46,351 bases of DNA from a virus. The stretch covers positions 1 to 46,351 of the IMG/VR virus record IMGVR_UViG_3300047318_000434; one strand, 5' to 3'. The notes under the pieces were generated by a model that saw only the letters and a list, made by a program, of their open reading frames with translations, was not told where the DNA came from and searched no databases. This document shows, piece by piece, positions 8,090 through 35,065 of the stretch. The stretch's first letter is position 1. Each line of letters starts with the position of its first letter. The translations under genes were made by a program, and so were the position numbers.

Positions 8090-8142
8090 GGCGGGTTCCT
8101 CCTGGGGCTTCTTGGTGGACCGCACCGTGCCCCCGCCAGGTG

Positions 8143-10239: not shown

Positions 10240-11490
10240 TTACCGGGTGGCGAGCAGTCCGAGGAGGAAAGCCCTCAGATCGTCATCCCTGTACCAGTCG
10301 CCGGAGAACATCGTCGCGAGCCCGCGGGCCGCGATCTGCTCGTCGGTGACCTGGTCCGCCTGGCCGCCGAACAGTCGCGCCAGCAGTACGTCCAGCGTGC
10401 TGCGCCGCGCCCCGGGCCGGCCGGTGTGGGTCCGGGTGAACCCGAAGGCCTCCTGAGCGGCCAGCAGGTCCGGGTAGTTCCGCTGAAGGTGGGCCAGCAG
10501 GGCATGGGCCGCGGTGGCGCGGCCGCCGTCGCCGAGGTCGGCAATCGTGGCCGTGCCGCTGTCTGCGTCGTACGCGCCCGCGTCACCGCTGACCGCGGTC
10601 ATAAACCGCGACGCCCGGTCGGCCAGCCACTCACGCGGCACGTACTGGGCCGCGTCCGTCAGCGCCCGCGTGGCGGCCGCGTCACTGCTGTGGCTCAGCG
10701 TCAGCCGGTTCCTGCCGCCGGGGCCCATCTCCCGGACCTGGGAGAGGGTGTCGCGCACCGCGGAGGGCAGTGCCGCCGTGTACGCCTGCTGGAGCCGTTC
10801 GGCTTCCTGCTGCGCGTGCTGCGCCTCCAGCCGGGCCGCTGCAATCTCCGGAGCGAGGTCCGGCGCATTGGTGCCGGCTGCCACCGCCCGGAGGTCACGC
10901 AGGCGGGCCTCCGTCCGGTCCGCGTACCGGCGGGCGTGCCGCACGGTGCCGTGCGGGTCGTCCCCGAGCTCCGGCGCGGCCGCCGTAAGCCGGGCGATCA
11001 GATCGGCGTCCACGTCCGCGCCCGCCGCGCGCAGCGCCGCGAGGTGCCGCAGCGCCTGCCGCCCGGGCCCGCGGTCCGCAGCCCGGTCCATGGTCCAGCG
11101 CACGCCGTCCTGCACCTGGGGCAGTTGCCCCGCGGCCAGAGTCGTCCGCGCGGCGGATCGGTACCAGCGGCTACGGCGCGCCACCTGACCGAAGCGGCCC
11201 GGGGCGGGCAGCAGTTGCGCCCAGTGCGCCACCTTCTCCGCCAGCGACATCCCGTCCCCAGGCCGGGGCAGGGACCGCGCGGCGGAGGCCATGCGGCGCA
11301 GGCGGCGCGTCTCTGGCCACGACCGGATCCGGCGGCCGAGACCCTTGCCGAAGCGGGCGATGGCCCGGCCCGTGGCCTTCACTCCGGCCGCGAGCGCCTT
11401 GAGGAACGCGGCCACCAGCTCCACGATCCTGCGGGCGATCTGCATCAGCGCGGCCACGATGCCCGCCATGAGCCCGGGCCGCTGCCCCTC
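10240..11490 (-). other. Giant protein C-terminal region: amphipathic helices and zincin-like remnant
   Basis: Residues about 6825-6885 form a basic amphipathic or hydrophobic stretch (IARRIVELVAAFLKAL, then GRAIARFGKGLGRR), which could touch membranes or DNA. The last 150 residues, ending RDDDLRAFLLGLLATR, recall the end of phage head-associated metallopeptidase-like domains. The expected HExxH is not there: the matching place reads AHALLAH. An inactive version is possible, but this homology is weak. Confidence 0.35.
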
Positions 11491-14400
11491 GGGCAGGTTC
11501 GCGGCGATACGCCCGGCGGTGTCATTGCGGGAGTCCGCCATCCGCTGGGCGAGCCGCGCGACGATCGCCGCACGCCGCTCCGGAGTCAGGGGGCCGTCGT
11601 CCGCCGCGGCGAGGGCATCGCCGACCGCGTCGCCAACATGGCTGCTGACCTCGTCATCGATGCGAGACGCCGCGCCACCGTCGCCCGGGACGTCGTCCGG
11701 GACGGCACTGTCGGGTTCCGGCTTGGGCCGGTTGCGCAGCGACTCCGGGATGAGCCGCAGCAGGTCGGCCGCACGCCGCGCCATGTCCTCCGGCGACTCC
11801 CCGTCCAGCGGCTCCAGGTCATCGAGCGTGCGCACCGCGGCCTTCACCGCGTCGGTGCGGGTTTGCATCGCTGTCTTGCGCAGCTCGGCGAGCATCCGCT
11901 CCCTGGCGTCCCCGGTGATGCCGGTCCCGTCGACCACGTTGACAAAGTCCTGCCGCAGCTTCCGCATCAGCGAGCGCATCGCCTGAAGGGTGAGCTGCTC
12001 GGCGATCTGCTCACGGAGCTGATGGATGCTGCCCGGGGTGGAAGTCCCCTGGATCGCGTTGCCGATGACGGCGCGGGCCACAGCGTCGGCGTAGTCCGCC
12101 TGGAACGCCTCCGGGTCGAGGCCCTGGTTCGGGTCGCGGGCCTCGGTGTCGGGGCCGGCCGCCGGAGCTTCCGGCTCGGGCAGTTGGTACAGCGGGTCAG
12201 TGGCGGTCAGCGTCCGCTCGGAGCGCTGCCCGTCCCCGTCCTCAACGGTGAGGATTCGTATGCCGCCCGGGGCGTCAGCCACGTCCACGACGCGGTATGC
12301 GCCCATGGTGTCCGGGTTCGTCTCGTCCGGCAGGGCGATGGTGTCACCGACGCCGACTGAGCCGACCGTGCCCGGCTCGGGCCGCCCCGAGGGGGCACTG
12401 TCCGGGGCGGGCGTGTTCGGGGCTTCCCCGGTGAGCCGCGCCTGGTTGGAGGCGAACCAGGCGGCCGCCGGGCGCTCCTTGTCCATCACAGTGGTGAGCT
12501 CCGCCGCGCCTCCGCGGCCGCCCAGGATCTGGAAGTGCCGGGTGCTGCTCGGGCCACCGGCCAGGCCTTCCAGCTGAACCGACACGCGCCCGTCGCTGAC
12601 ATCGACGGACTGCACCTTGCGGGTGAACCAGTCGCTGCCGTTGGTGCCCGGGCCGAACACCAGGTGATCGCCCGGCTTCAGGCCGGTCGCGGGGACGATG
12701 CGGCGGTCCGACTGCTCGCTGACCCCGCCGCCGACGTCGTTGCCGTCGTGCGGCACGGGCCGGAACGGCACGCGGGCGCCCACGGTCTGGTGGATGAAGC
12801 GGCCATCGGCGTTGGCGAGTTGGAGATCCACGGTGTTCCCGTCCTCGCTGCGGTTCGCTTCCACGACCAGCAGGCGGGACGTCTCGCCGTTGACGGGGGC
12901 CTCGATCACATCACCGGTCTGCAAGTAGCGGGCCTCGGTGGTCATGCCGCCGTCGTCCGCCGCTCCGGCCTGTCCCGCCGCCTGGTCGAGGTGGTCAGCG
13001 GCCCTCTTGGCGGCGCGGCCCTCCGGGGTGGAGGTGTCGGCGCCCTCGCGGAGGTCATCGGCGAGCGCCGAGGCCTGGTCGGGGGTGACCGGCAGGTCCC
13101 GGCCGATGCGGGCCGCGGCCTGCTCCGCGTCCGGGTCGCTGCTGGGGGCGGTGCCCCGGTCGGCGATGGCGTCGCGCTCCTCGGGGGCGAGCTCCGGGTC
13201 CACGGTCGGGCCGGTCACGGGGTCCACGGCCGGGGCGGGCTCGTGGGTCGTGATCGGGTCGTTCGCCAGCGGGGCGTCCTCCGGGCCGAGGTCGGGAGCG
13301 CCACCGTCCGCGGCCGCGGCCCGCTGCATCTCCGTGTCGCTGGGCACAGCCAGCGTGTTGGTGTCGCCGGAAGTGGTGTCCTCCAGACCGAGGTAGCTGG
13401 TCTGCCCCGAGTGCTGGGCAGTCTTGACCTTGACGGTGCGGTTCCCGCGCACGAGCACGTCACCCGGCTGGATTTCACCGGCGGTGACGGGCTCCACGTG
13501 GGCGACCTTCTCGTCGGCGGGGCCGGACGAGTCGGAGCCACCCAGGACGCGCAGGTCGCGGATACTCATGGGCTCCATGCCCTGCGGGGTGGCGACGGTC
13601 GCGGTGTCGCCGTCGACCTCCTCCACGGTGCCGAGCATGTTGCCGTCCCGGTCGCCGACCACGTTGCCGGTATCGACGCGGTGCCCGTCGGGTGTCCATC
13701 CGGTGGGCCGGGCCGCGCCGCCGTCGGTGACGGTGAGGGAGCTCGGCGCGTGCGCGTCGTCGGTGCGGTCGTCGCCGAACTGCACCTGCGCAGTGCCGGC
13801 GGTCGCGCCGACCACGACGCCTTCGCGGCCGTCGTCGTCGGTGACGGTCGAGCCGGGGAACAACCCGTTGCCGTCTGCGTCGTTGGCCACCCGGCCGGAG
13901 ATCCGGCCGGTGAGGACGTCCGAGTCCGCGCCGGTCTGGAGCGAGCCGGTGTCAGAGGCGTCGCCCGTGGCACGGGCCGCCGTGGCGTCCTGCGCCACCC
14001 ACACCGAACCCCGCGCGCCCTTGCCGTCCGGGGTGTCGGCGATCAGGACGCGGTACATGTCCTGAACCTTGCGGGCCTGCTCCGTCGGGACCAGCTCCGG
14101 CCCGCCCACGACGTACCCGGCGAGGGTGCGGGACGTGCCGCGCTTGGTGATGCCGTCGATGCGGACCAGGTCGCCCATGGCGATGTCGGAGACCTTGACC
14201 CACTCGGCGGGGCGGCCGCCGACCGGCTCGGGCTCGGCCGGGGCCTCCGGCTCCGCCTGGTCTGCCGCCGCCTGCTGCGCAGTCTCGGGCTCCGGCCGCG
14301 CCGCCGGGGCCGGACGGTCCGCGGCCGAGCTGCCGGTCTCGGGCGTGGAGCGCTGTGCGTCCGCCGCCGGGGCGTTGGTGCGGGTGTCCGAGTCCGGGCG

Positions 14401-17400
14401 AGGCTCCTCGGCGTTCTGCGCCGTCGTACGGGCCTCGCCGGAGGGCGTTCCCGCAGTCCGCTCGGGTGTGGCTACCGGAGTCTCGCCGACCTGGCGACCG
14501 TAGGTGTGCTCGTCCACGGGCAGGGTGATGTCATCCACGGAGGCGAGGCGTTCCACGCTGTCCCCGACGGGGATGATGAACGTATTCCCGTCGAGCTTGT
14601 GGGCGCCCACCGGGCTGTCGGCGACGGTGATGCGCAGACCCTTATGCCGCTTCTTGTTGACGGTGAACGTCGCCTTGCTGGGCTCACCGACCACGTAGCC
14701 GGTCCTGGAGTCGGTCGCTCCCGGGTAGCGGTCGGTGACCCGGCCGGCGAGGTGCACGATGTCACCCGCGCGGAGGTCGGTGACGGGGACCTTCCGCGAG
14801 TTGTCCCTGCCGCCCTCGTCCAGAAGCGTGCTGAGGAACTGCTTGGCGGCCCGGGCCTTGCTGGTCTCGTGATGCATGGCCCGCGGGTCCTCGGGCCGCA
14901 GCACGTCCAGGTACTCGCGGATCTGGTCGGCCAGCCAGCCGGGGCCGAGGATGTACTTGTGCTTCAAGTCGGCGGGCTGGTGCTTGTAGTGCGTGGAGTC
15001 CAACCACCGCAGCTCATCGTGCAGGTGGTCGAGATCGTCCGCAACGTTCCCACTGACCGTCTCGCCACGGCCGAGGGCATCGACCAGGGCGCGAATCTTC
15101 CGGTAGCGCTCCATGGCCGCCGGGCTGTCGTTCAGCGACTCCAGGCCGCGCAACCCTTCTTCCTCGGGCGGGAAGCCGAGACCCGGGTTCGTGTGCGAGA
15201 AGTCCCAAGCGATGTCGGGGTGGACGATGCTCAGGTCGGGCTCGCCCTGTTCCATGTCCCGCAGCACGAGATAGGCGATGGCCTGATCCCGGGTGGTGAA
15301 TCTGGGCTCGTGAAGATAGGTGGCGAGGGGCAGCTCGCCTTCCCACAACTGCGGGGGCTCTTCCGTGTAGAAGCCGTGGCGGTTCGGCTCCCGCAGGTTG
15401 CCGATCAGCCGGCCGTTGCGCCAGACCTCTCCGTCCTTGTCCGAGCGGATCCTCGGCTCGGGCACGAACCCCTGCGCGGCAAGTTCCTGCATGCGTTCGG
15501 GCGATCCGAAGAGAGCACGCTCGCCCTCGTCGTCGATGGCGCGGTCCTCGCCGACCTCGTACTGCTCCATCTCCTCGGGCGTCGGAATGCGCCGACCGTC
15601 CACGGTGCCCGCACGGCGCTCTCCCAAGGGGTGTGCGGAGTTGATGCCGTACTGGGACGCTGCGGCAGACGCCGGGGCGTCGCCCGTGGGCACCGCGCGG
15701 CCGGCGTCCGGCGTCCCCTCGGGCTGGCCCGGGCGCCCCACGCGGATGATCTCGTCCGTGGGCAGGCCCGTGTCCTCGGCGCGAGCGAAGCGGGTGATCC
15801 CCTTGTTCTTGTCGGGGATCAGGAAGGTGCGGCGCTTGGCGAGCCGTCCTGGCGGGATGAAGGGGGTGTCCGAGACGGTGATCCGCCAGCCACTGACGGG
15901 GCCACCCTTCCGCCCGATGTCGATGGTCGTCTTGATGGGCTCACCGACGATGTACCCCTGCTCCTTGCGACGCTCGGGCCCGAAAGACACATCCGCGAGT
16001 CCGGAAATCTCCACCAGGTCGCCATTGCGCAGGCCCTCGGGTGCGACCGTTTCGGCGTCCTCCTTCTTCACCTTGGCCAACTGGCCGTGCATGTACGCGG
16101 CAGCGTCCTCGTCCCGCTGGCGAGCGTGGTTGTGGGCGAGCGGGTGCTCCGGGCTGATGGTGTCCAGGGCGAAGGAGCTGCGTTCCATAACGCGGCCGAG
16201 ACTGGATCGCAGGCCCGTCACGCCTTCCGTCGTGTCGGGGCGGGGGAAGTTCTCGTACAGCCATTGGGCGCCGGTGAACGCATTCGCGAGGTCGTCCGCC
16301 ACGTTGTCGCTCGGACTCTGCCCGTTGTGGAGCGAATCCATAAGCTGCTTGAGAGCGGCCAGCCGCTCCTTGCCTTCGGGACTGTAGGCCGCCAGTGCGG
16401 CCTGATCCTCCTCTCGGTGGTCATCGACCGACATGAACCTGAACTCGCGTGCTTGCTCCGGGCTGATCCGGCTCACATCGCGGTAGTTGTCGTGAGCCTC
16501 GCTCGCCAGAACTAGGTAGGCCAGGGCCGCGTTCCTGCTGCTGAACCTGGGAGTGTCATGCACGCCAGCGCCCGGGAAGGGCAGCTGCGCTTCCCACTCC
16601 TTGAGCTTCTGGCCATTGGCGCGGATGTTGCCGATGTACCTGCCCTTGTACCAGGTGTGCGGCACATGGACTTCGTCGATGCGCACCTGCGTGGTCTGCC
16701 CGGCGAGTTCAGCCGTCCGCGCCTTCGGGTCCGGACCGAACAGCAGCTTCTCCCCTTCGGGGGTGACAAGCCGCTCTACCTGGCTCCAGTGCTCAGCGAG
16801 TTCCGGCAGGCTCAGGAAGCGGCCGCCGTTCTCGTCCGGGCCCGAGTTGGTGTCGGCTCCGCTGGCGTGAGGCGCCCGACCGCCCCCGTTCCGGTCGTTG
16901 CCGCCCGAACCGCCCGCGCCGGGAGCGGTGCCACGGTTGCCGTCGCCGGGGCCGCTGAGGTGCGGGACCCCAGGCAGGCCGGGGCCACCGGCACCGCCAG
17001 CACCGTTGCCGAGCCGGTTACGGCGACGGCGGCGCCCGTCACGGTCGTCGTTGTTGTCCTCGGAGTCGTCGCGCTCGTCGGTCTGGTCGCGCTCCTCCTG
17101 GCCCTGCCCGCCGTCGCTGACATCGTCGTTGGGCGTGCTGTTGTCGCCTTCCGAGGAGCCGTCGGCGCTGTCGCTGGGGCCCGCCTCAGCGTCGCCCTCG
17201 CGGTTGCTCAGGCTCGGCAGGTCCCGATCCTGCATGTCGCGGGCGAACCCGCGAGCCGCTTCCTCGGGGGTGTCGTATCGGCCTTCACCCCTCTGGCCGC
17301 CCGGCCGCCACCAGTAGTACTCATCCGTGTCCTTGTCCCGGCCGAGAAGGCCTTCGATACGGCCGTCGACATAGATGTTGCGGGGCCCGGACACCCCCTT

Positions 17401-23400: not shown

Positions 23401-26400
23401 GTCTCCGCCCTCGAAGTCGGTGGTGCCGATACGGGCGTTGAAGTCGTCGCCGCGGGTGGTCTTGCGCTTCTCGACGGCCTTCTGGAGTTGCGCGACGTAC
23501 TGCTTGGTCCACTCCTCGGCCTGCGCGGAGTCGCGGATGGCCTGCTTGAAACCCTCCTGGGAGCGCCGGTAGGCGTTGAAGCGGCCTCGCAGCCGGTTCA
23601 CGAGTGGCTTGAGCTGCGCCTGCGCGATCAGGTGCGGGTCACCGGCGGTGAGGGCGCTGACCTCGTCGGCGTCGAAGGTGACGGGGCCGATGTCCTCGAC
23701 GACGCGCTCGGAGAGCGAGCCGCGCATGAGGGCCCGGATGAACTTCGCCTTGCGGGCGATGGCTTCCCAGAACTTCGCGTCGGTGGACCGCTCGGTGGCG
23801 TACTGGAAGATGGCGACTTCGGCGTTGGCGTTGCCCTGCCGGATGACGCGGCCGTTGCGCTGGTCGACGTCGGCGGGCCGCCATGGGGCGTCCACGTGGT
23901 GCAAGGCAACGGCGCGGAGCTGGACGTTGGTCCCGGTGCCCATCTTGGCCGTGGACCCGAGCAAGACGGAGATCTTGCCGGAGCGGGCGTCGTTGAACAG
24001 GCGGGCCTTGGCCGCGTCGTCCTTCGCCTCGTGGATGAAACGTATCTGCTCGGACGGGATGCCCCGGGCGATCAGGAGAGACTTCAGCTCGTCGTACGTG
24101 GAGAAGTCGGTGTAAGTCTCCTCGTCCTCGCGGGACAGCTCGCTGCCGTCGTCGGCGAGGCCGGCGTCCATTTCGTCGGCTTCGGAGCCGCTGCCGGCCT
24201 TCTTCTTCCGCTTCTTGCTGCGACCCGGGTCCTTCGGCGTGCCCAGGTCGAGGAAGACGATCTGTAGGCCGCCCGGCGTCTCGTGCGGGGTGGCGTCGGT
24301 CTTGCTCGTCGGGAAGACGGCGTCCTTCGTCTCCCCGTAGATCCGCACGACGTTGTCCGCGACCGTCGGCAGCTTGTTGCCGCCGCCGAGGCTGGGGTCC
24401 AGAAGGCGCGGGTCGAGCGCGGCCATGCGGCCGTCGCCGAGGAGCTTGAGGTGGTTGTCCTCCTTCGGGTCAACGTTGCCGCCCTCAAGGCGCGCTGCGC
24501 GGATCCGAAGCCGTGCCTCGTACTCCTCCTGCGCCGGGGACATCGGCATAGTGATCGTGACGGCCTTGCCGCCGACGATGCCCGGCACGGGAAGGTCGAG
24601 GTCTTCAGCCGTCTTGACGTCGGCGAACGAACGCCACAGCCGCAGCAGCTCGGGGACGTTCTGGAACGCCGCCAGGCGCGTCTTCTCCTTGTAGGAGCCG
24701 TCAGGGCTGCGCTCGACCGCGGAGACCATCTGCGCGAACGTGGACGCGAAGTCGTCGAAGTCCAGCATCCCGAGCTCTTTGAGCAGGTCGGGGCGCAGGT
24801 AGCGCATCATCGTGTGGACTTCGGCGATGCTGTTCGCGACGGGGGTGGCCGTCGCGAACGTCACGACGCGGCCGGTGGAGGACCGCTCGCGCAGCCACTC
24901 CAGCTTCATCTCCAGGTCGGAGGCCCGGTTGGAACCGTCGATCGCCGCGACCGAGGACGGCGTGTCGAGGTTTTTGTACATGTGGGCTTCGTCGACCACG
25001 AGGTAGTCGACGCCCATGTCCTCGAAGTGCAGGCCCGCGGCGTCCTTGAGGCCGCTGAGCTTCTTGTCCAGCTTCTCCTCAAGGCTCTTGAGGCTGGCCT
25101 CCATCCGCTTGACCAGGCGGGTGTCGTTGCCCTCGCCGTCAGCGTCCTTCTGCCGGAAGATCTTTTCCCGCAGCCGCTCCACGCGGCGGCTGATGTAGTC
25201 CTCCTGGACCTCCGGGCGCATCTGGATCGACTCGAACGCGGTCTGCGTCAGGATGATCGCGTCGTAGTCACCGGCCGCAGCGCGGGCGATGAACTCGCGC
25301 CGGCCCTTGCCCGCCAGGTCTTCGCTGCTCGCGGTGAGGATCCGGTTGTTCGCGACGGACTCGGGGAAGATCTCCGCGAACTCGTGCCGGAACTGCTCCA
25401 GCATGTGCCCCGGCACGACCATCGCGGCCTTCTTCACCAGGCCCAGGCGCCGCAGCTCCATGACACCCATGGCCATCTCAGCCGTCTTGCCCGCACCGAC
25501 CTCGTGCGCCAGGAGCACGGACGGCTCATTGACCATCCGGGCGACGGCGGCGTGCTGGTGGGGGTGCGGGTCGAACCACTCGACCAGGCCGGGGATGGTG
25601 CGGCGCTGCCCGTCGTAGGAGCGCGGCGCCATCGAGTTGAAGTTGTCGTTGTAGTAGCGCTTGTGCTTCTCGGCGCGGTCGGAGTCGGCCCACAGCCAGT
25701 CCGTGAACGCCTCCCTGAGGAGGGAGGCCTTGGCCTGAGCGTCCTCGGTGGCGTCCTTGTCGTAGACGCTCTTGGCGTTCTCGCCGTGGCCGTCCTTCTT
25801 GGTGACGACGATCTTGCGGTTGGTGAGGATCGCCTCGGCGATCTCCAGAGCGGTGTAGCCCTTCGCGCTCCACGTGTGCGCGGTGCGCTCCGCGATGCTC
25901 TTCTTCGCACCGTCCGGGGCGTCCACCGCCCACAGGGCGCCGCCCTGCCACGACACCTTGATCCGCTGGTCGTTGAAGGTCTCGCGGAGGAACTGTTCGA
26001 CCGGCTCACGGCCGATCCAGGAGGCGCCCATCGGGGCGGCGATTTCACCGGTGGACAGGTCGGGCGGGACGACCCGCTCAAGGTGCTCGACGTTCAGGTC
26101 GTAACGGCTGTCGTCGGCCGCGGCGTGGCGGGCCTCGTCGAGCTTCTGGCGGACGTTCCCGGACAGGTAGTCCGCGGCCGTGACGAGCTTGCCGTCCGGG
26201 GCCTGGAACGCCATCGGGTACTCGACGCCGGTGTCCGGGTCGACGGAGCGGGCCGTCAGCAGTCGCGCGATGGCCGTGTCGGCGTCGGTTCGCATGACGC
26301 GGGCGAGGCCGTCGGCGGTCAGCCGGCCGTCGGTCTCCAGCACGATCGCGAGAGCGTCCTGCGGGTCGTCCGCGTACTTCGCGATCTCCCGGTACGTGCC

Positions 26401-29400
26401 GAGTCGCTTGCTGAAGATCGGGGCCTTGGTGGTCTTGCCGGTGGTGTCGTCGTACTCGTCGAGCGGCGTGATGTTCGCCATCGTCGGGTCGTTGGTGAAC
26501 AGGCCGCCGCGCGCCGCCTTCTTGCGGTACGTCTTCTCAACCTTCTCCCCGGTGTCCGGGTCGACGGCGGTGCGCTTCGACCACGTGAACCGGTTGATGG
26601 CGCCGAACTTGGAGTGGTACGCGTCGTACTGCTTGTTGAGCGCCTCGCGCAGCCGCTCGATCAGGGACTCGTCGGCGTCCTTGCGGTTCTCCTCCGAGAG
26701 GAGGGACTGGAACGTGTCGCGGATCGCGAGGAGCTGCCGGGCCTCGTTCGCCTGCGTCTTGAAGACGGGGAAGGGGTGCACCATGCCGTCGCGGACCTGC
26801 GTGAAGGTCCCGTCCGGTTCGGCCTGCACGTGCCCGTCGACCCGGGAGGAGCCGGGCGGCAGAAGCGTGACCCTGCTGCGGCCCTCCGTGTCGGGCTTGT
26901 AGGCGAGGCCTGCCGCCTTCGCCTCCTCGACGGTCCGCTTCAAGACTCGCTGGAGGTTGGCGATGGTCTTGCCGTCGCCGTCCACGCGCAGCTCGTTGTC
27001 ACGGTTCATGCCGTGGCCGACCGCGAGCCTGCCGAGAACCTGCTGCGGGTTGTCGTGGAAGTAGCTGTTGTAGAAGACAGGCGGCTCGGCCTGCTCCGGC
27101 GGCGTGTCCGCCTTGGGCGGGTTCTGCCCCGGCAGGGCGTACGTGGGCAGGGAGTGCACCCACATCGGCGGGTCGTTCTGCGTCCGCTCCGACGGCCGCT
27201 TGACCTCACCCTTGCGGTTGCGGCCCGATGTGAACGACTTGCTCTTGTCGCGGCGCCGGAAGATCAGAAGGTCTGTCATCACCGACGTGCCCGCGGTGCG
27301 CTGGTGCGCGCCGGACGGCAGACGGATCGCGCCGACGAGCTCGGCCTTTTCCGCCATCTCCATACGGGCGGCTTCGCTGCGCCCGCCGTGGCCGTCCATC
27401 GTCAGCGCGGACGTCACGACCGAGACCAGGCCGCCACCACGGGTCAGGTCCAGGGACTTGAGGATGAAGTGGTTGTGGATGGAGTGGCCACCCTTGTTGT
27501 GCACCAGGTCGGGCACCTTGTACCGGCCGAACGGCACGTTGCCGACCGCCGCATCGAAGGTGCCGTTGGGGGCGCGGGTGTCACCGAAAGACTCATGCCG
27601 GACTTCGGCGTGCGGGTAGAGGGCCTTCGCGATGCCCGCGGTGATCGAGTCGACCTCGACACCGGTCATGTGTGTGCCGTCGGGCGCGTAGCCGATGAAG
27701 TTGCCGACGCCGGATCCGGGCTCCAGCACACTGCCGGCGTCGAATCCGAGGTCGGTCAGGGCCGACCACATCTGCTGCACGATCTGCGGGTCGGTGTAGT
27801 GCGCGTTCAGGGTGTTCGCGCGGGCGTCGTCCCACTCGGCATCGGACAGCAGGCTCCGCAGCCGCTTCGCGAGCGGCTGGAACTGCGCATCCGGCTGCGG
27901 CTTGAAGATCTGGGGGACCGCGCCCCACCCGGAGTACCGGGCAAGTTCCTGCTGCTCGGCCCCGGTCGCGGGACGGTTCTCGTCCTGGAGCCGGCGCAGG
28001 ATCTCAATGGCGGCGATGTTCGCCTTGGCCCGGTTGACCGGGCTCGACGGAACGAGGGTCTTCCCGTCGGCGGGCGGCTCGTAGGCCGGAGCAGTCGCCT
28101 GCTGCTCCGGCGTGCCGAACGCTACGGGAGCGGAGGCAGCTCCACCCGCGGCATGTCCTTCGTCTCCGTCCCCGGATCCTTCGGCATCCCGTACACCATG
28201 TCCTGAAGCACCCGCTCCCGGGCCCGCATCCGGACCGACTTCAGCTCGCGAGCCCGCGCCACCGCGTCCGTCCCCTCCCGCAGCGGAGGAGCCCACTCCT
28301 CCGTCAGATCCTCGATCTGCTGCACGATCTCGTCCGACCGCTCCCGGGCGAACTCCTCGAACGCCTTGTCCGTCGGGAACCGATCCACTTCCCTGGCCCG
28401 GTACGTCTTCCAGAACGTCCGAACGAGATCCACGTACGACACTGTCATTGCTCCTCTTGTGCTGTTCGGACAGGGCCTGTCGAGCGACGCTCACGTTCTC
28501 ACGCGCCAGGCGCAGGAACTCGGCCGCATGGGCGTGGTCGCCGCCGCGGCCGCGCAGCGCGCGCTGCATGCCGTCGAGCGCGTCCTGGAACCGGCGGATT
28601 GCCTCCGACGGCTCGATGTCACCGCGCTTCAGCGCGTCCACGGCGTCTCCGGCAGGCGCCGCTAGGTCGAGCGCAGCGGGCGCACCGCGCAGCTCGGTCA
28701 GACTGTTGACGACCGGGCCGAGCTGCTGCTCTGCCAGATCGAGCGCTTCCACGATGTGGTGGCTGGCGGCGGTGACGGCCAGGGTGGGGCGCTGCTCGCC
28801 CGGGGCGTCGTCCTGCGGCTCCGTAGGCACGTCGGACGCGGCAGGGGGAGCGGGCGGGCGCTCGCTGTCGTGCTCGCGCACCAGGTCCGCGAGGGCCGCC
28901 TCCTCGGTGAGGAACGGCTTCTTGGAGCTGTAGCGGGTGCCGTGACCGAGCCGGTTCCACGTCCAGCGACCCGCAGAGCCCTGGAGCGTGGCGTCGTCCT
29001 GGTTGTCGCCATCGACGGCGGCGGGGCGGTGGCCCGAATCGTTGCGCGCGCCGAGCTGGACGCGGGAGAGCTGCTGTGCGTACGCCTGTCCGTCGCGGCG
29101 CTGGGCCTCGGCGAGGATCGCTGTCTTCTCAGCCTGGGCGCGGGCCTTCTTCGCCTGGTCGCCGGAGGACAGGGTGTCAGACCAATCCTGGTCGGCCTTC
29201 GCGTAGGCGGCGTCGAGGTCCTCGCGCGACACCTGCGACCAATCCCGCTGCTCGGGCGCCGCCTGCGGGGCTGGCTGCGGGGCGTCGGGGTTCGGGGTGT
29301 TGGCGCGGTTGCCCGCGTATGGGGTGCCGTCGGGGCGGGTGATGTCCTTGAGCGCGTGGGAGTGGGTGCCCTGCTCGGCGCGCACGAGCACCGACCCGGA

Positions 29401-31962
29401 GTCCTTGTTCACGGCCATGACCGAGCCGACGCCGTCAGGAGAGTTGACCTCGTCGCCGGTGTTGGGGAAGTCTCCGTCCGGCGTTGCCTGGGGGGCGTTC
29501 GGCGCCGCCGCGGCCGGAGCAGCGGCCGGAGTAGCCGCAGGGGTCGGGGCGGGCTTGTTCTGCTCCTCCTGCCGCTTCTCGTACTCCTTCGCGAAGTACG
29601 AGTCCGCGTGCCCGTGCTCGATGTCGAACCGGCCGCGGACATCGTCCATCCGGTTCCCGAATTCCTTGCGCCACCCGCCGATACGGTTCGGGTTGCGGCG
29701 GAACAGCTCGGGGTCCCACCAGTCCACCGGCTGGCCGGGCCGCGACGGCTCTTCCACCTCGCGACCGATCATCAGCGCGAACCGGCTGGCGTCCTGCCGC
29801 GACTTGAAGCCCTGTCCTGCGCTGCCGGTGAAGCCGATGCCGCGGCCGTCGTAGGCGCGGACGACATTGAAGTTCTCCGGGCCGCGCTCGATGACAGCGA
29901 ACGCGAAATGGTCCGCCAGAGTGATCTTCAGGTCGCGGTTGTTCGCGAACTGGCTCAGCCGCTCCTTGGTGTGCGCGTCGAACGAGGGGTCGCCGCCGTT
30001 CTTCCAGTACTCGCGCAGCTCACCGGTGGTGCTCGGCTTCCTCGTGCGTCCGTCAGGGGCGGTGTTGGTTCCAGGACCGACGTGGCCGACGCCGATGTTC
30101 TGCGCGGGCGCGCCGGTGGTGTTGGCGATGTTCTGCGCCGCCTGCACGAGGGGGTTGGGCCGCTCGGCCGGCGCCGGGGCCGGGGGCGCGGCGGGGGCGG
30201 GCGTCGCAGGCGCGGGGGTGCGCTTCGCGGCAGCGCCCTCACGCTTCTTCGCGGCCTTGTCCGCGAAGGCCTTCTTCGCCTCCTCGCTGGCCTGGCGCAC
30301 CATGGCCTGGCCCTCGGTGGACTCCAGGCGCTTGTGGAAGTCCGGGGCGTCCCAGTCGAAGGGCTTGCCGTCGCTCTGCGCGGCTTCCAGGCGGTTGGCG
30401 AAGTCGAGGGCCTCGCCCTTGCGGTCCGACATGGCCAGGCGGACGCCGCTGTTGGAGACGATGACGGCGTACCCGGACTTGCGCTTGCCGTCCTTCTCCA
30501 CGGTCATCTTCGCCACGACGAACGTGCCGCCGCGGGAGAGCTGCGGCTTCTCCAGCTTGTCGAACAGGGCGGCGGTCTCCTTGCGGTGCCGCTCCTGCTT
30601 GGCCTTGTCGGAGGTGACCGGGACCAGGGTGCCGCTCTGCCAATGCTGATGAACGTCAGCGAGGGTGTTGAAGCGGCGCTGGCCCTTCCCGGCGGCCGAC
30701 TTGCTGCGCGAGCCCGTGGTGCCCGGCTGCTGGCCGGGGGTCTTGTAGACGGTCTCGCGAGTGCCGTCGGGGCGCCACGCGCGCGGGACAAGCGGCTGAT
30801 CGTTGGCGAGCTTCCTCTTCGGCGCCGGGATCGGCTTCTTGCCGTGGCTATCGAACCGCTCGTAGGCGAAGTTCAGCGCGTCGGCGAGGTTCTGCGCGTA
30901 GCGCGCGACATCGTCCTGGCCGTCGTTGTGGGCGAGCTCCGCGAGGTGCTCGGCGTCGTCCGCGGACCACGACAGCTTGTCGACCTCGGTCGGGTCGAAA
31001 TGATCATTCTTGTCGTCGCCGACTTCGAACGGTGCCTCGTCGCCGCTGAGCCAGCCGAACAGCTCCTCGTACAGGTCGCGCGCTTCGGCGTTGTTCCAGT
31101 CCTCAGGCCAGACGCCTTCGAGGTCGCCGAAGTAGTCGACGCTGAGGTCACGCAGCGCACGGCGGGCATGGCTGGTGTCCCAGAACTGGCTGTTGTGGTC
31201 GTTCACCTTGGGGCCGGCGGCGCGCAGCGCGTCACCGTTGCCCATCACGTGCTGGTTGTGGATGGCCGCGCCACGGTGGTCGGCGCCGCCTCCGGTTATG
31301 GACAGCAGGTCGGGGAAAGAGCGCTGCGGCGCGTTGCCGCGCTGCGTGGCATTGCCTACGCGGTCGCCGTTCTCGTCCTTCGGGTTGGCCATGACGCGGC
31401 CCTGCGGGACCAGCAGGGGGTCATCGTCCTGGTTCGGGTCGTCGGGGCCCGCGCCGTGGTCCTGGCCCTCGATGTCCTGCCCGATCGGCTTGCCCTCGTC
31501 GTCATGCGTGTGAGGCTCGTCGGGGGTAAAGCCGTTGTCGCCCGGGTCGTTCTCGCCGTGGTCCTCGCCGTTGTCGTCCTTCGCCGGGTCGTGCGCGGCG
31601 AATCCGTTGCCGCGGTTCTCGTCGCCGAAGCGCCGCTCGTCCTCGTCGCGGACCTTCTGTTTGCTCTTGGTCGGAGCGGAGCCGTCCGGGCGGGCGACCA
31701 TGGTCAGCCGGGCCGCGTTGATGCGTGAGCGCTCGTGCGTGGCCAGGTTCTCCACCAGCACATCGCGGCCGCCGAGAGCGCGCAGCACGCGGGCCATGCC
31801 GCCGCCCCACATGCGGGCGATACCGCCCGTCTCCACAAAGCGGCCCTTGGAATCGCGGGGGTGCAGATCCGGGTTCCAAGTGCGACGCAGCCTCTTGGTT
31901 TCGAGGCTGGCGAGGATGCGGTCTGCGGCGCTCATGATCGGCATGCGGCGGACCATGCACAC
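10240..31962 (-). CDS. Giant polyvalent (DarB-like) methyltransferase/helicase protein
   Basis: One open frame of 7,240 codons. An HPRDSKGRFV motif near residue 35 is typical of phage polyvalent and MuF-linked proteins. Approximate order: a duplicated 130-aa domain (425-800), an N6-adenine methyltransferase domain (1285-1575), an SNF2 helicase (2120-2790), coiled coils, a winged-helix-like segment (3195-3280), a UvrD/PcrA helicase (3750-4355), many short beta modules, a second duplicated domain pair (5050-5650), more beta modules, an amphipathic stretch (6830-6880) and a helical C-terminus. P1 DarB, a packaged antirestriction protein, has the same methyltransferase-helicase core. The gene lies between portal and protease genes. 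No start (GTG 31962; ATG 31956, 31944 or 31935) has a ribosome site; ATG 31935 gives the most natural N-terminus. At residues about 1172-1281 another frame carries the coding signal, so this may be more than one polypeptide. Confidence 0.75.
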   Translation of the reverse strand: MCMVRRMPIMSAADRILASLETKRLRRTWNPDLHPRDSKGRFVETGGIARMWGGGMARVLRALGGRDVLVENLATHERSRINAARLTMVARPDGSAPTKSKQKVRDEDERRFGDENRGNGFAAHDPAKDDNGEDHGENDPGDNGFTPDEPHTHDDEGKPIGQDIEGQDHGAGPDDPNQDDDPLLVPQGRVMANPKDENGDRVGNATQRGNAPQRSFPDLLSITGGGADHRGAAIHNQHVMGNGDALRAAGPKVNDHNSQFWDTSHARRALRDLSVDYFGDLEGVWPEDWNNAEARDLYEELFGWLSGDEAPFEVGDDKNDHFDPTEVDKLSWSADDAEHLAELAHNDGQDDVARYAQNLADALNFAYERFDSHGKKPIPAPKRKLANDQPLVPRAWRPDGTRETVYKTPGQQPGTTGSRSKSAAGKGQRRFNTLADVHQHWQSGTLVPVTSDKAKQERHRKETAALFDKLEKPQLSRGGTFVVAKMTVEKDGKRKSGYAVIVSNSGVRLAMSDRKGEALDFANRLEAAQSDGKPFDWDAPDFHKRLESTEGQAMVRQASEEAKKAFADKAAKKREGAAAKRTPAPATPAPAAPPAPAPAERPNPLVQAAQNIANTTGAPAQNIGVGHVGPGTNTAPDGRTRKPSTTGELREYWKNGGDPSFDAHTKERLSQFANNRDLKITLADHFAFAVIERGPENFNVVRAYDGRGIGFTGSAGQGFKSRQDASRFALMIGREVEEPSRPGQPVDWWDPELFRRNPNRIGGWRKEFGNRMDDVRGRFDIEHGHADSYFAKEYEKRQEEQNKPAPTPAATPAAAPAAAAPNAPQATPDGDFPNTGDEVNSPDGVGSVMAVNKDSGSVLVRAEQGTHSHALKDITRPDGTPYAGNRANTPNPDAPQPAPQAAPEQRDWSQVSREDLDAAYAKADQDWSDTLSSGDQAKKARAQAEKTAILAEAQRRDGQAYAQQLSRVQLGARNDSGHRPAAVDGDNQDDATLQGSAGRWTWNRLGHGTRYSSKKPFLTEEAALADLVREHDSERPPAPPAASDVPTEPQDDAPGEQRPTLAVTAASHHIVEALDLAEQQLGPVVNSLTELRGAPAALDLAAPAGDAVDALKRGDIEPSEAIRRFQDALDGMQRALRGRGGDHAHAAEFLRLARENVSVARQALSEQHKRSNDSVVRGSRSDVLEDVPGQGSGSVPDGQGVRGVRPGAVGRDRAADRGSDGGVGSSAAGGDGRGGAGSRAEVGPDAGPGAGASGHGVRDAEGSGDGDEGHAAGGAASAPVAFGTPEQQATAPAYEPPADGKTLVPSSPVNRAKANIAAIEILRRLQDENRPATGAEQQELARYSGWGAVPQIFKPQPDAQFQPLAKRLRSLLSDAEWDDARANTLNAHYTDPQIVQQMWSALTDLGFDAGSVLEPGSGVGNFIGYAPDGTHMTGVEVDSITAGIAKALYPHAEVRHESFGDTRAPNGTFDAAVGNVPFGRYKVPDLVHNKGGHSIHNHFILKSLDLTRGGGLVSVVTSALTMDGHGGRSEAARMEMAEKAELVGAIRLPSGAHQRTAGTSVMTDLLIFRRRDKSKSFTSGRNRKGEVKRPSERTQNDPPMWVHSLPTYALPGQNPPKADTPPEQAEPPVFYNSYFHDNPQQVLGRLAVGHGMNRDNELRVDGDGKTIANLQRVLKRTVEEAKAAGLAYKPDTEGRSRVTLLPPGSSRVDGHVQAEPDGTFTQVRDGMVHPFPVFKTQANEARQLLAIRDTFQSLLSEENRKDADESLIERLREALNKQYDAYHSKFGAINRFTWSKRTAVDPDTGEKVEKTYRKKAARGGLFTNDPTMANITPLDEYDDTTGKTTKAPIFSKRLGTYREIAKYADDPQDALAIVLETDGRLTADGLARVMRTDADTAIARLLTARSVDPDTGVEYPMAFQAPDGKLVTAADYLSGNVRQKLDEARHAAADDSRYDLNVEHLERVVPPDLSTGEIAAPMGASWIGREPVEQFLRETFNDQRIKVSWQGGALWAVDAPDGAKKSIAERTAHTWSAKGYTALEIAEAILTNRKIVVTKKDGHGENAKSVYDKDATEDAQAKASLLREAFTDWLWADSDRAEKHKRYYNDNFNSMAPRSYDGQRRTIPGLVEWFDPHPHQHAAVARMVNEPSVLLAHEVGAGKTAEMAMGVMELRRLGLVKKAAMVVPGHMLEQFRHEFAEIFPESVANNRILTASSEDLAGKGRREFIARAAAGDYDAIILTQTAFESIQMRPEVQEDYISRRVERLREKIFRQKDADGEGNDTRLVKRMEASLKSLEEKLDKKLSGLKDAAGLHFEDMGVDYLVVDEAHMYKNLDTPSSVAAIDGSNRASDLEMKLEWLRERSSTGRVVTFATATPVANSIAEVHTMMRYLRPDLLKELGMLDFDDFASTFAQMVSAVERSPDGSYKEKTRLAAFQNVPELLRLWRSFADVKTAEDLDLPVPGIVGGKAVTITMPMSPAQEEYEARLRIRAARLEGGNVDPKEDNHLKLLGDGRMAALDPRLLDPSLGGGNKLPTVADNVVRIYGETKDAVFPTSKTDATPHETPGGLQIVFLDLGTPKDPGRSKKRKKKAGSGSEADEMDAGLADDGSELSREDEETYTDFSTYDELKSLLIARGIPSEQIRFIHEAKDDAAKARLFNDARSGKISVLLGSTAKMGTGTNVQLRAVALHHVDAPWRPADVDQRNGRVIRQGNANAEVAIFQYATERSTDAKFWEAIARKAKFIRALMRGSLSERVVEDIGPVTFDADEVSALTAGDPHLIAQAQLKPLVNRLRGRFNAYRRSQEGFKQAIRDSAQAEEWTKQYVAQLQKAVEKRKTTRGDDFNARIGTTDFEGGDARDDARRALNTALRAVFADGMRRPYDENAPATRIGQVGGLDVTARFVRTRSIGNQWYDTVRVDLPQVPGAWQDYEDHELIDHDGKPRSLPLSRIENSIANIDERINRAEHRRADKKRAAEQAAGRIGKPFELATEFDESTRQLDLLNEIMRLKAQPTVTEEDTAKRNKQIDSLDAELRAMSSDQEDVLAQVAARDVNLVPKTPAPPAISQDDKGRVKWIWPTTEARDAERAKKLAAKREAFLARTSSSAQAAPAQPDALGMNNADLKEETDQLAERISKGEATDADVVRHAGLEREQQRRAKNRQAKEKPATPTGQGDESASSNPSASDDTTTPPQQAPAEPNLTTAQAAALESALNSVRSPDGRQIEAHPNVLRRLLKLGYAEERSKPRVGGGSITYYVLTPEGERRAKSIGEEREKARAARLAELDAADEAPEGESQTDTTPSPSQDSPEPVQRPAAPANGIPGASPQQPPAPRTTPPQEDRPRPARNQADTVRPFANAREWSAGMATVEAAQGQVTRAAETTWGRDVPGTARSLRDNVFAAIAAQEAGDFDDAAGSLVAAQDDAQALRSSLDDVDRPGMEDPLSNFMRTADDYLARHAVSVEKRRREDAQQGSIEREAQEQFRRSLMGDQASASEAPEAPAAGSVAPSTAAGWRDGDFQPGDTVHFRNPNAMNALQKGEFVRSTGPGAALLRNPQGAEREVQYIDVVGRTRNGEFQQNPQSPTPQANRQDQQPTPPTPEPAAAPAASTGGTAPQAPRPQRTAPSDVRPVPATPPADMSADQLGEELDSLDERIESLKGATDPVDLAYRFRLEQRQFELDEEERRRWKPTVEHDENGKAIPRKRGDVIRDRLAGYGLNDAETRGLAHRVEDLPAAKPGGYSDDEWARIDAEASANESYPPTEEQGIIIEGAARRGLNMAVMALAGTGKSSTLKMLSHRMPGKRIVYLAFNRSVANEAREAQARGEYAQNLTASTANSYAAKVADKRLNNRLPSNKRDGFKKLSAQQIADRMRWYDTVKAGNRDLSPGGAATVAERMIRTWAKSADAEMGPQHITGAKTKQEARDLFNAVKPLADRMWANLSDPTRGDADEDLTMDFDYIVKMWALGGYKIDADTLFWDEAQDVNPVMEGVVRGAIDQGVQVVAVGDSNQAIYGFRGAADALGKLPVDARATLTQSFRFGPAVADVGNRFLRLLGTRMRLKGFDRKKSRLGNIKPGDETMVIARTNAGVALAAVEALAAGRRVAVSGGVKDLQEFVQAARALANGEHTDHAELARFNGMAYDDILDAVKDDPDLSQLKSLFQLLEKHPDEIDQLMESGAQSARSENVGGRVWVTLDWNDPKAGQLKRWLGDAKTNGVGKLLYDPATRRYYYEPGKRNVPWKDARTGRSGEHRVDNKLSLEDAQKKIDAHLAKLYPQEEAEGGRLVPETQEHDVLVTTAHKSKGLESERVRVADDFRGPERDDNGNIKWDTMPDDEALRVAYVSVTRATDVLDSGSLGWVFEAVNDEDPTQPPTGEYRRDWVPDDFKTGDRINFQGEDGTFHTGEVARVDAPGLIARYEDDGQRREQDISVAQVQRLNGQKQPLLPVASDGELNQAIAEGRYPSAGGDAPVKLDPEQVRNDLADLRGDAIAPETGDANAPQAPAAADTPQPADTEPTPTAPEADNAPAAGTGAWAEGDEVITPQDEQGTIQHVADNGVALVATDIGLRPVALSELKRPGQDMSEAEAVRQAETRGRRAEEDAWLAAAATSEGAPIKTMDGYRLANLDVDAGHGAIMRDGEMVAWIRARGPKGEATWLAQDARGGRPMTPAAAVSEGDGEDGIYHSIERAAWSAAYGADSSVDPSRGQGVTRPEDQRGPIMGTLLTEAQFREFQDLAKRWESSDDADLRHVGTKYYAGPVSAGQMRHAADAVDSEADALDLSTADGRRREKLYRGLAKGLRSQARSLEASATMAPPGEHDPFSRRGMQPDAPESGDGARGDADVPEWADDLGNGIWVDKPKKGVSGPRNIYVDGRIEGLLGRDKDTDEYYWWRPGGQRGEGRYDTPEEAARGFARDMQDRDLPSLSNREGDAEAGPSDSADGSSEGDNSTPNDDVSDGGQGQEERDQTDERDDSEDNNDDRDGRRRRRNRLGNGAGGAGGPGLPGVPHLSGPGDGNRGTAPGAGGSGGNDRNGGGRAPHASGADTNSGPDENGGRFLSLPELAEHWSQVERLVTPEGEKLLFGPDPKARTAELAGQTTQVRIDEVHVPHTWYKGRYIGNIRANGQKLKEWEAQLPFPGAGVHDTPRFSSRNAALAYLVLASEAHDNYRDVSRISPEQAREFRFMSVDDHREEDQAALAAYSPEGKERLAALKQLMDSLHNGQSPSDNVADDLANAFTGAQWLYENFPRPDTTEGVTGLRSSLGRVMERSSFALDTISPEHPLAHNHARQRDEDAAAYMHGQLAKVKKEDAETVAPEGLRNGDLVEISGLADVSFGPERRKEQGYIVGEPIKTTIDIGRKGGPVSGWRITVSDTPFIPPGRLAKRRTFLIPDKNKGITRFARAEDTGLPTDEIIRVGRPGQPEGTPDAGRAVPTGDAPASAAASQYGINSAHPLGERRAGTVDGRRIPTPEEMEQYEVGEDRAIDDEGERALFGSPERMQELAAQGFVPEPRIRSDKDGEVWRNGRLIGNLREPNRHGFYTEEPPQLWEGELPLATYLHEPRFTTRDQAIAYLVLRDMEQGEPDLSIVHPDIAWDFSHTNPGLGFPPEEEGLRGLESLNDSPAAMERYRKIRALVDALGRGETVSGNVADDLDHLHDELRWLDSTHYKHQPADLKHKYILGPGWLADQIREYLDVLRPEDPRAMHHETSKARAAKQFLSTLLDEGGRDNSRKVPVTDLRAGDIVHLAGRVTDRYPGATDSRTGYVVGEPSKATFTVNKKRHKGLRITVADSPVGAHKLDGNTFIIPVGDSVERLASVDDITLPVDEHTYGRQVGETPVATPERTAGTPSGEARTTAQNAEEPRPDSDTRTNAPAADAQRSTPETGSSAADRPAPAARPEPETAQQAAADQAEPEAPAEPEPVGGRPAEWVKVSDIAMGDLVRIDGITKRGTSRTLAGYVVGGPELVPTEQARKVQDMYRVLIADTPDGKGARGSVWVAQDATAARATGDASDTGSLQTGADSDVLTGRISGRVANDADGNGLFPGSTVTDDDGREGVVVGATAGTAQVQFGDDRTDDAHAPSSLTVTDGGAARPTGWTPDGHRVDTGNVVGDRDGNMLGTVEEVDGDTATVATPQGMEPMSIRDLRVLGGSDSSGPADEKVAHVEPVTAGEIQPGDVLVRGNRTVKVKTAQHSGQTSYLGLEDTTSGDTNTLAVPSDTEMQRAAAADGGAPDLGPEDAPLANDPITTHEPAPAVDPVTGPTVDPELAPEERDAIADRGTAPSSDPDAEQAAARIGRDLPVTPDQASALADDLREGADTSTPEGRAAKRAADHLDQAAGQAGAADDGGMTTEARYLQTGDVIEAPVNGETSRLLVVEANRSEDGNTVDLQLANADGRFIHQTVGARVPFRPVPHDGNDVGGGVSEQSDRRIVPATGLKPGDHLVFGPGTNGSDWFTRKVQSVDVSDGRVSVQLEGLAGGPSSTRHFQILGGRGGAAELTTVMDKERPAAAWFASNQARLTGEAPNTPAPDSAPSGRPEPGTVGSVGVGDTIALPDETNPDTMGAYRVVDVADAPGGIRILTVEDGDGQRSERTLTATDPLYQLPEPEAPAAGPDTEARDPNQGLDPEAFQADYADAVARAVIGNAIQGTSTPGSIHQLREQIAEQLTLQAMRSLMRKLRQDFVNVVDGTGITGDARERMLAELRKTAMQTRTDAVKAAVRTLDDLEPLDGESPEDMARRAADLLRLIPESLRNRPKPEPDSAVPDDVPGDGGAASRIDDEVSSHVGDAVGDALAAADDGPLTPERRAAIVARLAQRMADSRNDTAGRIAANLPEGQRPGLMAGIVAALMQIARRIVELVAAFLKALAAGVKATGRAIARFGKGLGRRIRSWPETRRLRRMASAARSLPRPGDGMSLAEKVAHWAQLLPAPGRFGQVARRSRWYRSAARTTLAAGQLPQVQDGVRWTMDRAADRGPGRQALRHLAALRAAGADVDADLIARLTAAAPELGDDPHGTVRHARRYADRTEARLRDLRAVAAGTNAPDLAPEIAAARLEAQHAQQEAERLQQAYTAALPSAVRDTLSQVREMGPGGRNRLTLSHSSDAAATRALTDAAQYVPREWLADRASRFMTAVSGDAGAYDADSGTATIADLGDGGRATAAHALLAHLQRNYPDLLAAQEAFGFTRTHTGRPGARRSTLDVLLARLFGGQADQVTDEQIAARGLATMFSGDWYRDDDLRAFLLGLLATR
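15000..16815 (-). other. Second duplicated domain pair in the giant protein
   Basis: Two related segments, at about 16815-16450 and 15600-15200, share an order of elements: an acidic start, a GE(K/R)(L/A)LFG segment, a W-x-(K/N)-GR-(Y/L)-IGN motif, then PRF(S/T)(S/T)R and a helix ending IAYLVL or LAYLVL. Each is followed by a helical part and a beta module containing GY(I/V)VGEP. They look like tandem copies of one binding domain. Confidence 0.5.
18900..20730 (-). other. UvrD/PcrA-type SF1 helicase domain in the giant protein
   Basis: Motifs appear in the usual order: PPTEEQ (Q motif), ALAGTGKSST (Walker A, near 20625), WDEAQDVNP (Walker B, near 20045), GDSNQAIYGFRGA (motif III, near 19945), TTAHKSKGLE (motif V, near 19080) and AYVSVTRA (motif VI, near 18950). 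All key residues are present, so an active ATP-driven 3'-5' helicase or translocase is likely. Such a domain beside an SNF2 engine in one chain is unusual. Confidence 0.85.
23600..25600 (-). other. SNF2-type helicase domain in the giant protein
   Basis: Motifs: HEVGAGKTAEM (Walker A, near 25500), VVDEAHMYKN (DEAH-type box, near 24990), ATATPVANS (motif III, near 24855), LLGSTAKMGTGTN (motif V, near 23960) and QRNGRVIRQGN (motif VI, near 23850). This is the DarB-type arrangement, with a long insertion between the two helicase lobes (about 24750-24100). Confidence 0.85.
27240..28115 (-). other. N6-adenine methyltransferase-like domain in the giant protein
   Basis: The domain begins with the family-typical RYSGWGAVPQIF, then an AHYTD segment, LEPGSGVGNF (SAM-binding motif I, near 27715) and VGNVPFG (near 27540) in the place of the catalytic NPPF/NPPY motif. 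The Asn and Phe/Tyr are kept but the first Pro is Val, as in DarB-like proteins. Whether it methylates DNA or only binds it cannot be told from sequence. Confidence 0.8.
28122..28448 (-). CDS. Nested gene in another frame inside the giant frame
   Basis: A 108-aa frame, shifted by one nucleotide from the giant frame. It starts at ATG 28448 (or GTG 28442) right after AAGAGGAG and stops at TAG 28122. In its first 52 codons 46 end in G or C (88%); the giant frame over the same bases has 19 of 52 (37%). The product looks like a real protein: aromatic N-terminus, then FPTDKAFEEFARERSDEIVQ and a long charged helix with RMRARERVLQDM. The giant frame here gives only Gly/Arg/Ser/Asp-rich sequence. Small helical proteins of this kind are a plausible partner for a DarB-like protein. 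Function unknown. Coding status is well supported; its relation to the giant frame is unresolved. Confidence 0.75.
   Translation of the reverse strand: MTVSYVDLVRTFWKTYRAREVDRFPTDKAFEEFARERSDEIVQQIEDLTEEWAPPLREGTDAVARARELKSVRMRARERVLQDMVYGMPKDPGTETKDMPRVELPPLP
29570..30700 (-). other. First duplicated domain pair near the giant protein N-terminus
   Basis: Two related 130-aa segments (about 30690-30240 and 30040-29570) share this order: a helix with HQHW or REYW, a basic helix, a beta part (TFVVAKM or HFAFAVIE) with an internal strand pair, a SRQDASRFALMIG-like or EALDFANRLE helix, then a DW-x-P-(D/E)-(F/L) motif. A Pro/Ala-rich linker lies between them. The function is unknown; they look like substrate-binding modules. 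Confidence 0.5.
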
Positions 31963-31970
31963 CGGGGATG

Positions 31971-31979
31971 GTTAACGTC
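31971..31979 (-). promoter_or_regulatory. GACGTTAAC element upstream of the giant gene
   Basis: The minus strand reads GACGTTAAC 9 nt before the earliest possible start of the giant gene (31962). It is identical to the copy upstream of the capsid gene at 5762-5770. Confidence 0.45.
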
Positions 31980-32015
31980 GCGGGCTCGAATTTCGGCCGC
32001 GGGCGGCGGAGGCTG

Positions 32016-32228
32016 CTACATGGTCTCGGTGAGGATGTGCAGCAGGAACCAGATGGAGAATCCGCTCCAGCCGACCGTGAATGCGGCTCTGCCGAGTTTC
32101 GAGGTGCGGGTACGGAACAGTCTTCGTACGTTCTCGCTCAAGGTGTCGTCGTCTTTCCGATTGATCAGCGCCCACGTTTCGTACAGGGCGAATGCGGCAG
32201 TCCACGCGGACCAGATCATCCAGCTCAC
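32016..32228 (-). CDS. Two-helix phage membrane protein
   Basis: A 70-aa protein whose GTG start overlaps the nuclease stop (GTGA) and has AAGGAG 8 nt upstream. Helix one is about residues 3-22 (WMIWSAWTAAFALYETWAL). A charged loop with RKDDDTLSENVRRLF follows, and helix two is about 51-66. Proteins with this pattern are common in actinophages near the portal; some are thought to be holin-like or to protect the lysogen. The membrane topology is clear and the role is not. Confidence 0.75.
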   Translation of the reverse strand: MSWMIWSAWTAAFALYETWALINRKDDDTLSENVRRLFRTRTSKLGRAAFTVGWSGFSIWFLLHILTETM

Positions 32229-35064: not shown

Positions 35065-35065
35065 G

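Follow-up and report, generated by a model that had tools for sequence, protein, structure and literature searches.

A 7,234-residue polyvalent protein encoded among the head genes of a Streptomyces phage, with constant ends, a variable middle and probable delivery with the phage DNA

The window (the whole stretch of 46,351 nucleotides that was analyzed) carries phage head genes on its minus strand, and among them lies one gene of very great length, which is called the giant in the following text. The features of this region are:

4357..5718, minus strand: major capsid protein
5762..5773, minus strand: late-promoter-like element before the major capsid gene, a pattern match in the window
5825..8125, minus strand: S78 prohead protease carrying a fused 2H phosphoesterase / 2'-5' RNA ligase domain
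10240..31962, minus strand: giant frame as given by the ORF listing, 7,240 codons with a GTG start
10240..31944, minus strand: probable extent of the giant gene, from ATG 31944 to the stop codon, 7,234 aa, 781.5 kDa, pI 5.3, 0 cysteine
31945..31982, minus strand: late-promoter-like element of the giant, CGCGACGTTAAC-N13-CATGGTCCGCCGC, directly before the ATG with almost no leader
32016..32228, minus strand: small membrane protein between portal and giant, counterpart of Gilgamesh gp47
32225..32599, minus strand: staphylococcal-nuclease-like protein between portal and giant
32596..35103, minus strand: portal protein fused to a MuF domain
35455..35466, minus strand: late-promoter-like element of the portal operon, a pattern match in the window

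The giant had been predicted to lie between the portal and protease genes; this order was confirmed, with the correction that two small genes separate the portal from the giant. All eight annotated relatives have the succession portal, small protein, giant, small proteins, protease-position protein and capsid, and the order portal-giant-protease-capsid is common to Streptomyces phages, to phage-like plasmids of 125-132 kb and to the isolated phage Gilgamesh, whose giant is gp48 (a literature search on this phage found no report). The protease-position protein of the relatives has a fused 2H/RNA-ligase or NUDIX domain, and its annotations read 2'-5' RNA ligase family, NUDIX or hydrolase; it may be the protease (5825-8125) itself that brings a variable enzyme into the head.

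Further genes were observed on the portal side. A radical SAM protein (weak QueE-like PHROG match) and an acetyltransferase lie near the portal at 36261-38538, and a tyrosine integrase (42578-43867) lies about 7 kb upstream of the portal, the integrase of Gilgamesh being at a similar distance. The NBC_00536 relative (L011 4475-6324) carries on its portal side 6-carboxytetrahydropterin synthase, QueE and FolE, a 7-deazaguanine-type gene set which hints at modified DNA in some relatives.

The original prediction took the 7,240-codon minus-strand frame as real, and the comparison of sequences bears this out. About 135 stops are expected by chance over 7,240 codons at the base composition of the window and none is present, and the codon-position GC of about 0.7/0.5/0.9 in every 400-codon block is a coding-type pattern. 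The antisense strand of the same stretch also has long open runs, up to 2,569 aa, hence the openness of the frame alone is weak evidence and the comparison with relatives was used as the decisive evidence. A second, longer IMG/VR contig (G003) matches the whole window at 100% and probably represents the same phage population. Beyond these two, 12 further distinct giant frames were found, all intact: frames of 8,152, 7,699, 8,178 and 7,058 codons in IMG/VR relatives, of 5,256, 5,364, 5,408, 6,298, 5,855, 4,517 and 4,906 codons in Streptomyces plasmid records (125-132 kb), and of 4,629 codons in Gilgamesh (gp48, 4,624 aa as annotated). The intact frames of the family span 3,293-8,178 codons, and 43 more records also hold the C-terminal region of the giant, in frames that run without a stop for up to 7,515 codons; a few of these records are duplicated or cut by contig ends. 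The dN/dS ratio of the window against two relatives is below 1 in each measurable 400-codon block and mostly 0.11-0.37 over the methylase, SNF2 and UvrD parts. An artefact, whether an assembly error or a frame open merely through 70% GC, would find its support in the long antisense runs; the identical frame in the second contig, the homologous intact frames in complete phage and plasmid genomes, and the purifying selection together with intact motifs make it vanishingly improbable, and the comparison with relatives rules it out. At the level of sequence the frame is thus confirmed as coding, codon-biased and under purifying selection in every measurable block, and it is one gene.

The start of this gene was placed with the help of the element before it. 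The consensus GCGACG(T/C)TAAC-N13-CATGGTCCGC stands immediately 5' of the giant with few DNA changes across all 14 sequences. In the eight annotated records the element pattern occurs at 25 sites on the gene strand and at none on the other strand, and 24 of the 25 lie no more than 160 nt upstream of a same-strand gene start, for which only 11% of positions in these records qualify. The distance is fixed for each gene: 37 nt for the giant and likewise for the gene that opens the portal operon, 111-116 nt for the capsid gene and 67-70 nt for a tail gene. For the Gilgamesh giant it is 25 nt, the annotated start being an earlier ATG within the element, and the sole site beyond 160 nt belongs to the S. 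zaomyceticus giant, whose annotated start is placed further in. In the S. zaomyceticus sequence one base is missing between the element and the ATG, and therefore the apparent 'CMVRRM' is promoter and not protein. Gene-strand exact copies of the element were sought inside the giant frames and none was found. Since the stretch upstream of ATG 31944 is read as promoter, this ATG, giving 7,234 aa, is most likely the start instead of the listed GTG, and late transcription of the giant would begin at a promoter of its own, alike in type to those of the portal, capsid and tail operons.

The enzyme core and the small modules occupy the following segments:

22504..28422, minus strand: whole DarB-like antirestriction match (phrog_10089, 1272 bits)
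27235..28038, minus strand: LPD36-like GWGA motif and adenine methyltransferase (motif I VLEPGSGVGNF, GNVPFG)
23803..25575, minus strand: SNF2-type ATPase (motifs AHEVGAGKT, DEAHMYKN, QRNGRVIRQG)
18925..20718, minus strand: UvrD-type superfamily 1 helicase, an optional payload (PF00580 above cut-off)
12184..16035, minus strand: cluster of SH3/KOW-like barrel modules, partly overlapping an internal duplication

A DarB-like methylase/SNF2 core and a separate UvrD helicase had been predicted, and both were recovered by PHROG and Pfam with all catalytic motifs intact. The dyad has the motif order GWGA, VLEPGSGVGNF, GNVPFG, AHEVGAGKT, DEAH and QRNGR, that is the DarB-type arrangement of LPD36 GxG(G/A/S), N(P/V)PF adenine methyltransferase and then SNF2 ATPase; the UvrD part has LAGTGKS, WDEAQD (DEAQ box), GDSNQAIYGFRGA and AYVSVTRA. 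P1 DarB matches the giant at 2e-24 and 4e-23, with 30% identity in the methylase and 24% in SNF2. The "dozens" of small modules are partly confirmed: a home-made profile, its seeds taken from the giant itself so that its counts are descriptive, gives seven short and seven long G-D-x-hydrophobic (SH3/KOW-like) modules, 14 in all. The fold was checked for the last one, which folds as an EF-P/eIF5A-type KOW barrel (VIA-align: Z 8.8, rmsd 1.4, 64 residues). Residues about 5050-5400 and 5460-5815 form the internal duplication, and several linkers between modules have few hydrophobic residues.

The ends of the giant are constant and its middle is variable. The segments concerned are:

31477..31944, minus strand: conserved N-terminal segment, HPRDSKGRF(V/I)ETGG with an SH3-like module, a candidate packaging signal
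31837-31863, minus strand: HPRDSKGRF motif within this segment
10243..12432, minus strand: conserved C-terminal region, found in all members of the family and made up of a KOW-like barrel, a helical bundle and a final alpha/beta domain
10243..10770, minus strand: final domain with homology to zincin-like domains in head proteins of phages, without HExxH

What all 14 giant frames share is limited to residues 1-165, about 5910-6330 and 6540-7240. Of 42 virus records 30 have the methylase, and SNF2 is found in precisely these 30; UvrD occurs in 8 of the 42, always within the giant frame. One IMG/VR record and S. zaomyceticus have UvrD without the dyad. The 12 virus relatives outside the 30 keep the C-terminal end and have neither methylase nor SNF2. 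No known domain was found in the middle of Gilgamesh gp48, and the payload of the S. anulatus relative, which lacks methylase and UvrD, gave just a sub-threshold DUF2188 match. Between the window and the relative G001 the dS value drops from about 0.45 to 0.09-0.17 across residues 800-3200, which suggests that this block was swapped recently by recombination. A single-protein search of genome contigs returned no locus and an alignment-based search seven. The motif HPRDSKGRF was sought with a strict pattern in the other head proteins of the phage and was not found, so a tag common to those proteins was set aside; no similarity was seen between the N-terminus of the giant and the capsid signal of P1 DarB.

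The C-terminal region has no convincing known family among Pfam and PDB sequences. Its AlphaFold models reach a pLDDT of 82.7 (730 residues) and 89.7 (last 338), PDB fold searches with them gave weak helical matches only, and VIA-align of the C-terminal model with a zincin protease domain gave Z 5.8 over 135 residues, which is too low alone. An HMM search found a weak actinobacterial relative carrying HExxH, and several of the proteins related to it bear annotations as head or virion structural proteins of phages. Profile comparison of the final domain with the actinobacterial relative gave E 7.7e-6 and a probability of 84%; the match covers 166 columns and runs to the C-terminus that both have in common. 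The HExxH zinc motif was found in none of 40 family members, and a search of viral contigs for active zincin relatives gave none. We read the final domain as a head-protein-type zincin-like (MPTase) domain by descent with no active peptidase. As the zinc site is missing, the domain should not cleave its own chain and would act as a scaffold rather than as a protease. The virion RNA polymerase of phage N4 depends for its packaging on its MPTase-containing region (PMC5512222).

It is also conceivable, and in our judgement unlikely, that the one gene yields a polyprotein which is cut by the prohead protease or otherwise into separate head proteins, some of them packaged. The prohead serine protease gene downstream of the giant, the processing of P1 DdrB before packaging (PMC5512222) and the linkers poor in hydrophobic residues would agree with cutting, whereas the zinc motif missing in 40/40 members makes self-cleavage unexpected, the ends and the middle are held in one frame in more than 50 records though the middle varies, and the N4 RNA polymerase enters the virion uncut (PMC5512222). 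The 781-kDa chain may still be cleaved in the head or in the host, with the neighbouring prohead protease as a possible agent.

The giant has no cysteine in 7,234 residues, for which the chance is 2.6e-19 at the frequency of 0.59% in neighbouring genes. The 14 giant frames together have one cysteine in 87,670 residues, where about 518 are expected, and the other annotated genes of eight relatives have 362 in 61,238. Six tape measure proteins (1,338-1,363 aa) have none, and capsid proteins have 0-1, nearly all 0. A wider set of 48 loci has eight cysteines in 191,448 residues, and the distant DarB-like giants JC1 gp69, VvAW1 and Itty13 have none in 4,515, 3,640 and 4,112 residues respectively. 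Over 75 viral DarB-like frames of at least 2,500 aa, several of which include a cysteine upstream of the true start, the cysteine content is 0.055%, against 1.24% in other ORFs beside them, a value inflated by spurious ORFs; most frames above 4,000 aa have 0-2. P1 DarB is the exception with nine cysteines in 2,255 aa, and therefore the loss is not needed in every packaged DarB protein. N4-like virion RNA polymerases are without cysteine, which was proposed to help their transit (PMC5795418, PMC4837373); a limited literature search found no report of cysteine absence in DarB-like giants.

Plasmid homologues were surveyed as well. Six circular Streptomyces 'plasmids' of 125-132 kb (L011, L045, L046, L047, L049, L050) have a head-tail module, several with ParA/ParB, are typed non-mobilizable and are probable unlabelled phage-plasmids. 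Linear Streptomyces plasmids carry UvrD giants of 8,746 aa (L119 1-33662) and 10,905 aa (L120 6437-34568) by record coordinates, the first adjoining a 4,569-aa toprim giant. On a T4SS-bearing S. cellulosae plasmid (L051 20052-22405) the C-terminal region is divided among three genes in a row, and after them come small genes and the genes of a NUDIX protein and a serine protease, an arrangement that recalls the phages. The phage-type C-terminus occurs in only eight plasmid records, seven of them phage-like, and was not found in the linear plasmids with UvrD giants. Plasmid homologues have 0-0.40% cysteine, and the two linear-plasmid UvrD giants have 0.36-0.37% in the portions examined.

These data bear on another possibility, namely that the giant is a late protein which works within the producing cell without being ejected, for example in the methylation or repair of progeny DNA that awaits packaging. 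Replicated DNA could be a substrate of methylase, SNF2 and UvrD, and the linear-plasmid UvrD giants exist outside any head operon. We consider this possibility quite improbable, as the head-operon position of the giant is conserved, the phage C-terminus is absent from those linear-plasmid giants, which retain cysteine at about 0.36%, and the homologue JC1 gp69 is present in virions.

The best explanation as a whole, to which we give a probability of roughly 0.7, is that one Streptomyces-phage gene makes a single polyvalent protein late in infection, which is packed into the head and ejected with the DNA. Packing would be steered by the constant ends, the N-terminal tag around HPRDSKGRF and the zincin-like C-terminal region. 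The protein would exit through portal and tail in unfolded, thread-like form, and the missing cysteine would prevent disulphide cross-links in the virion and in the passage, as judged from its composition and from the precedent of the N4 RNA polymerase. After refolding in the newly infected cell, the SNF2 motor and the adenine methylase may protect the incoming DNA from restriction by modifying or shielding it, in the manner of P1 DarB, UvrD may deal with gaps or single strands, and the SH3/KOW-like modules may keep the chain along the DNA; the middle of the gene would be an exchangeable payload.

The original prediction had the protein packaged, injected and defending the incoming DNA, and its parts fare differently. 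One very large chain, made late with the head genes, packaged and ejected, is well supported by sequence and analogy: frame and gene order are conserved, the late-promoter sequence is shared, cysteine is absent, the C-terminal domain is of head-protein type, the gene of the homologous P1 DarB adjoins portal and protease genes, and JC1 gp69 was detected in purified virions by mass spectrometry with 51 unique peptides (PMC9144972). P1 DarB is packaged through an N-terminal capsid signal in its first 30 residues (PMC9024508). Protection of incoming DNA by the methylase-SNF2 payload is plausible by analogy, and since 12 of 42 relatives are without this core, such defence cannot be the function of the whole family. 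A broader proposal stands near an even bet: the tag and the inactive zincin-like region form a general delivery chassis, by which any payload between them is carried into the head and then, unfolded, into the cell, with cysteine removed by selection from the whole chain; the same would hold in distant DarB-like giants above about 4,000 residues, so that cysteine absence marks ejected megaproteins.

If the reading of packaging and ejection is right, near-megadalton proteins pass the phage portal and tail, an extreme test of shipping folded enzymes through a narrow tube; the fixed ends could reveal cargo selection, and missing cysteines would be a simple sequence signature of ejected phage proteins. 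Gilgamesh on S. lividans is a culturable relative, so the giant is testable now.

Proteins of this kind are already known. Polyvalent proteins, including those with the DarB-type methylase-SNF2 dyad, were described by Iyer et al. 2017 (PMC5512222) as chains above 2,000 aa with several conflict-type domains in a phage packaging or conjugation context; the giant has 7,234 aa with methylase, SNF2, UvrD and modules, and is flanked by portal, prohead protease and capsid genes. The 12,242-aa OJH72069.1 of a Streptomyces viridifaciens plasmid, with SNF2 and UvrD (Iyer et al. 2017, PMC5512222), likewise joins the dyad and a UvrD helicase in a single gigantic actinobacterial chain, whereas by its description it belongs to a plasmid with a conjugation-like context and the giant has a head-operon place, phage-type ends and no cysteine. 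Gilgamesh gp48 (4,624 aa) shares position, N-terminal tag, C-terminal region and absence of cysteine, but methylase, SNF2 and UvrD were not detected in its middle. P1 DarB, which is packaged and believed ejected, shares methylase, SNF2 and a gene adjoining portal and protease, but it has 2,255 aa, no UvrD, another N-terminal signal and nine cysteines. Burkholderia phage JC1 gp69 (4,515 aa, in virions by mass spectrometry) and other Bcep22-like giants have a DarB-like core and no cysteine, yet these phages are podoviruses, the core is about 31% identical and the gene lies at the end of the structural module. The N4 virion RNA polymerase is also a giant packaged and ejected enzyme without cysteine whose MPTase region is needed for packaging, but its core is an enzyme of another kind. 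To our knowledge, what is new is a phage family with a chassis-and-payload build, its promoter, its zincin end without activity and the wider reach given to the cysteine rule.
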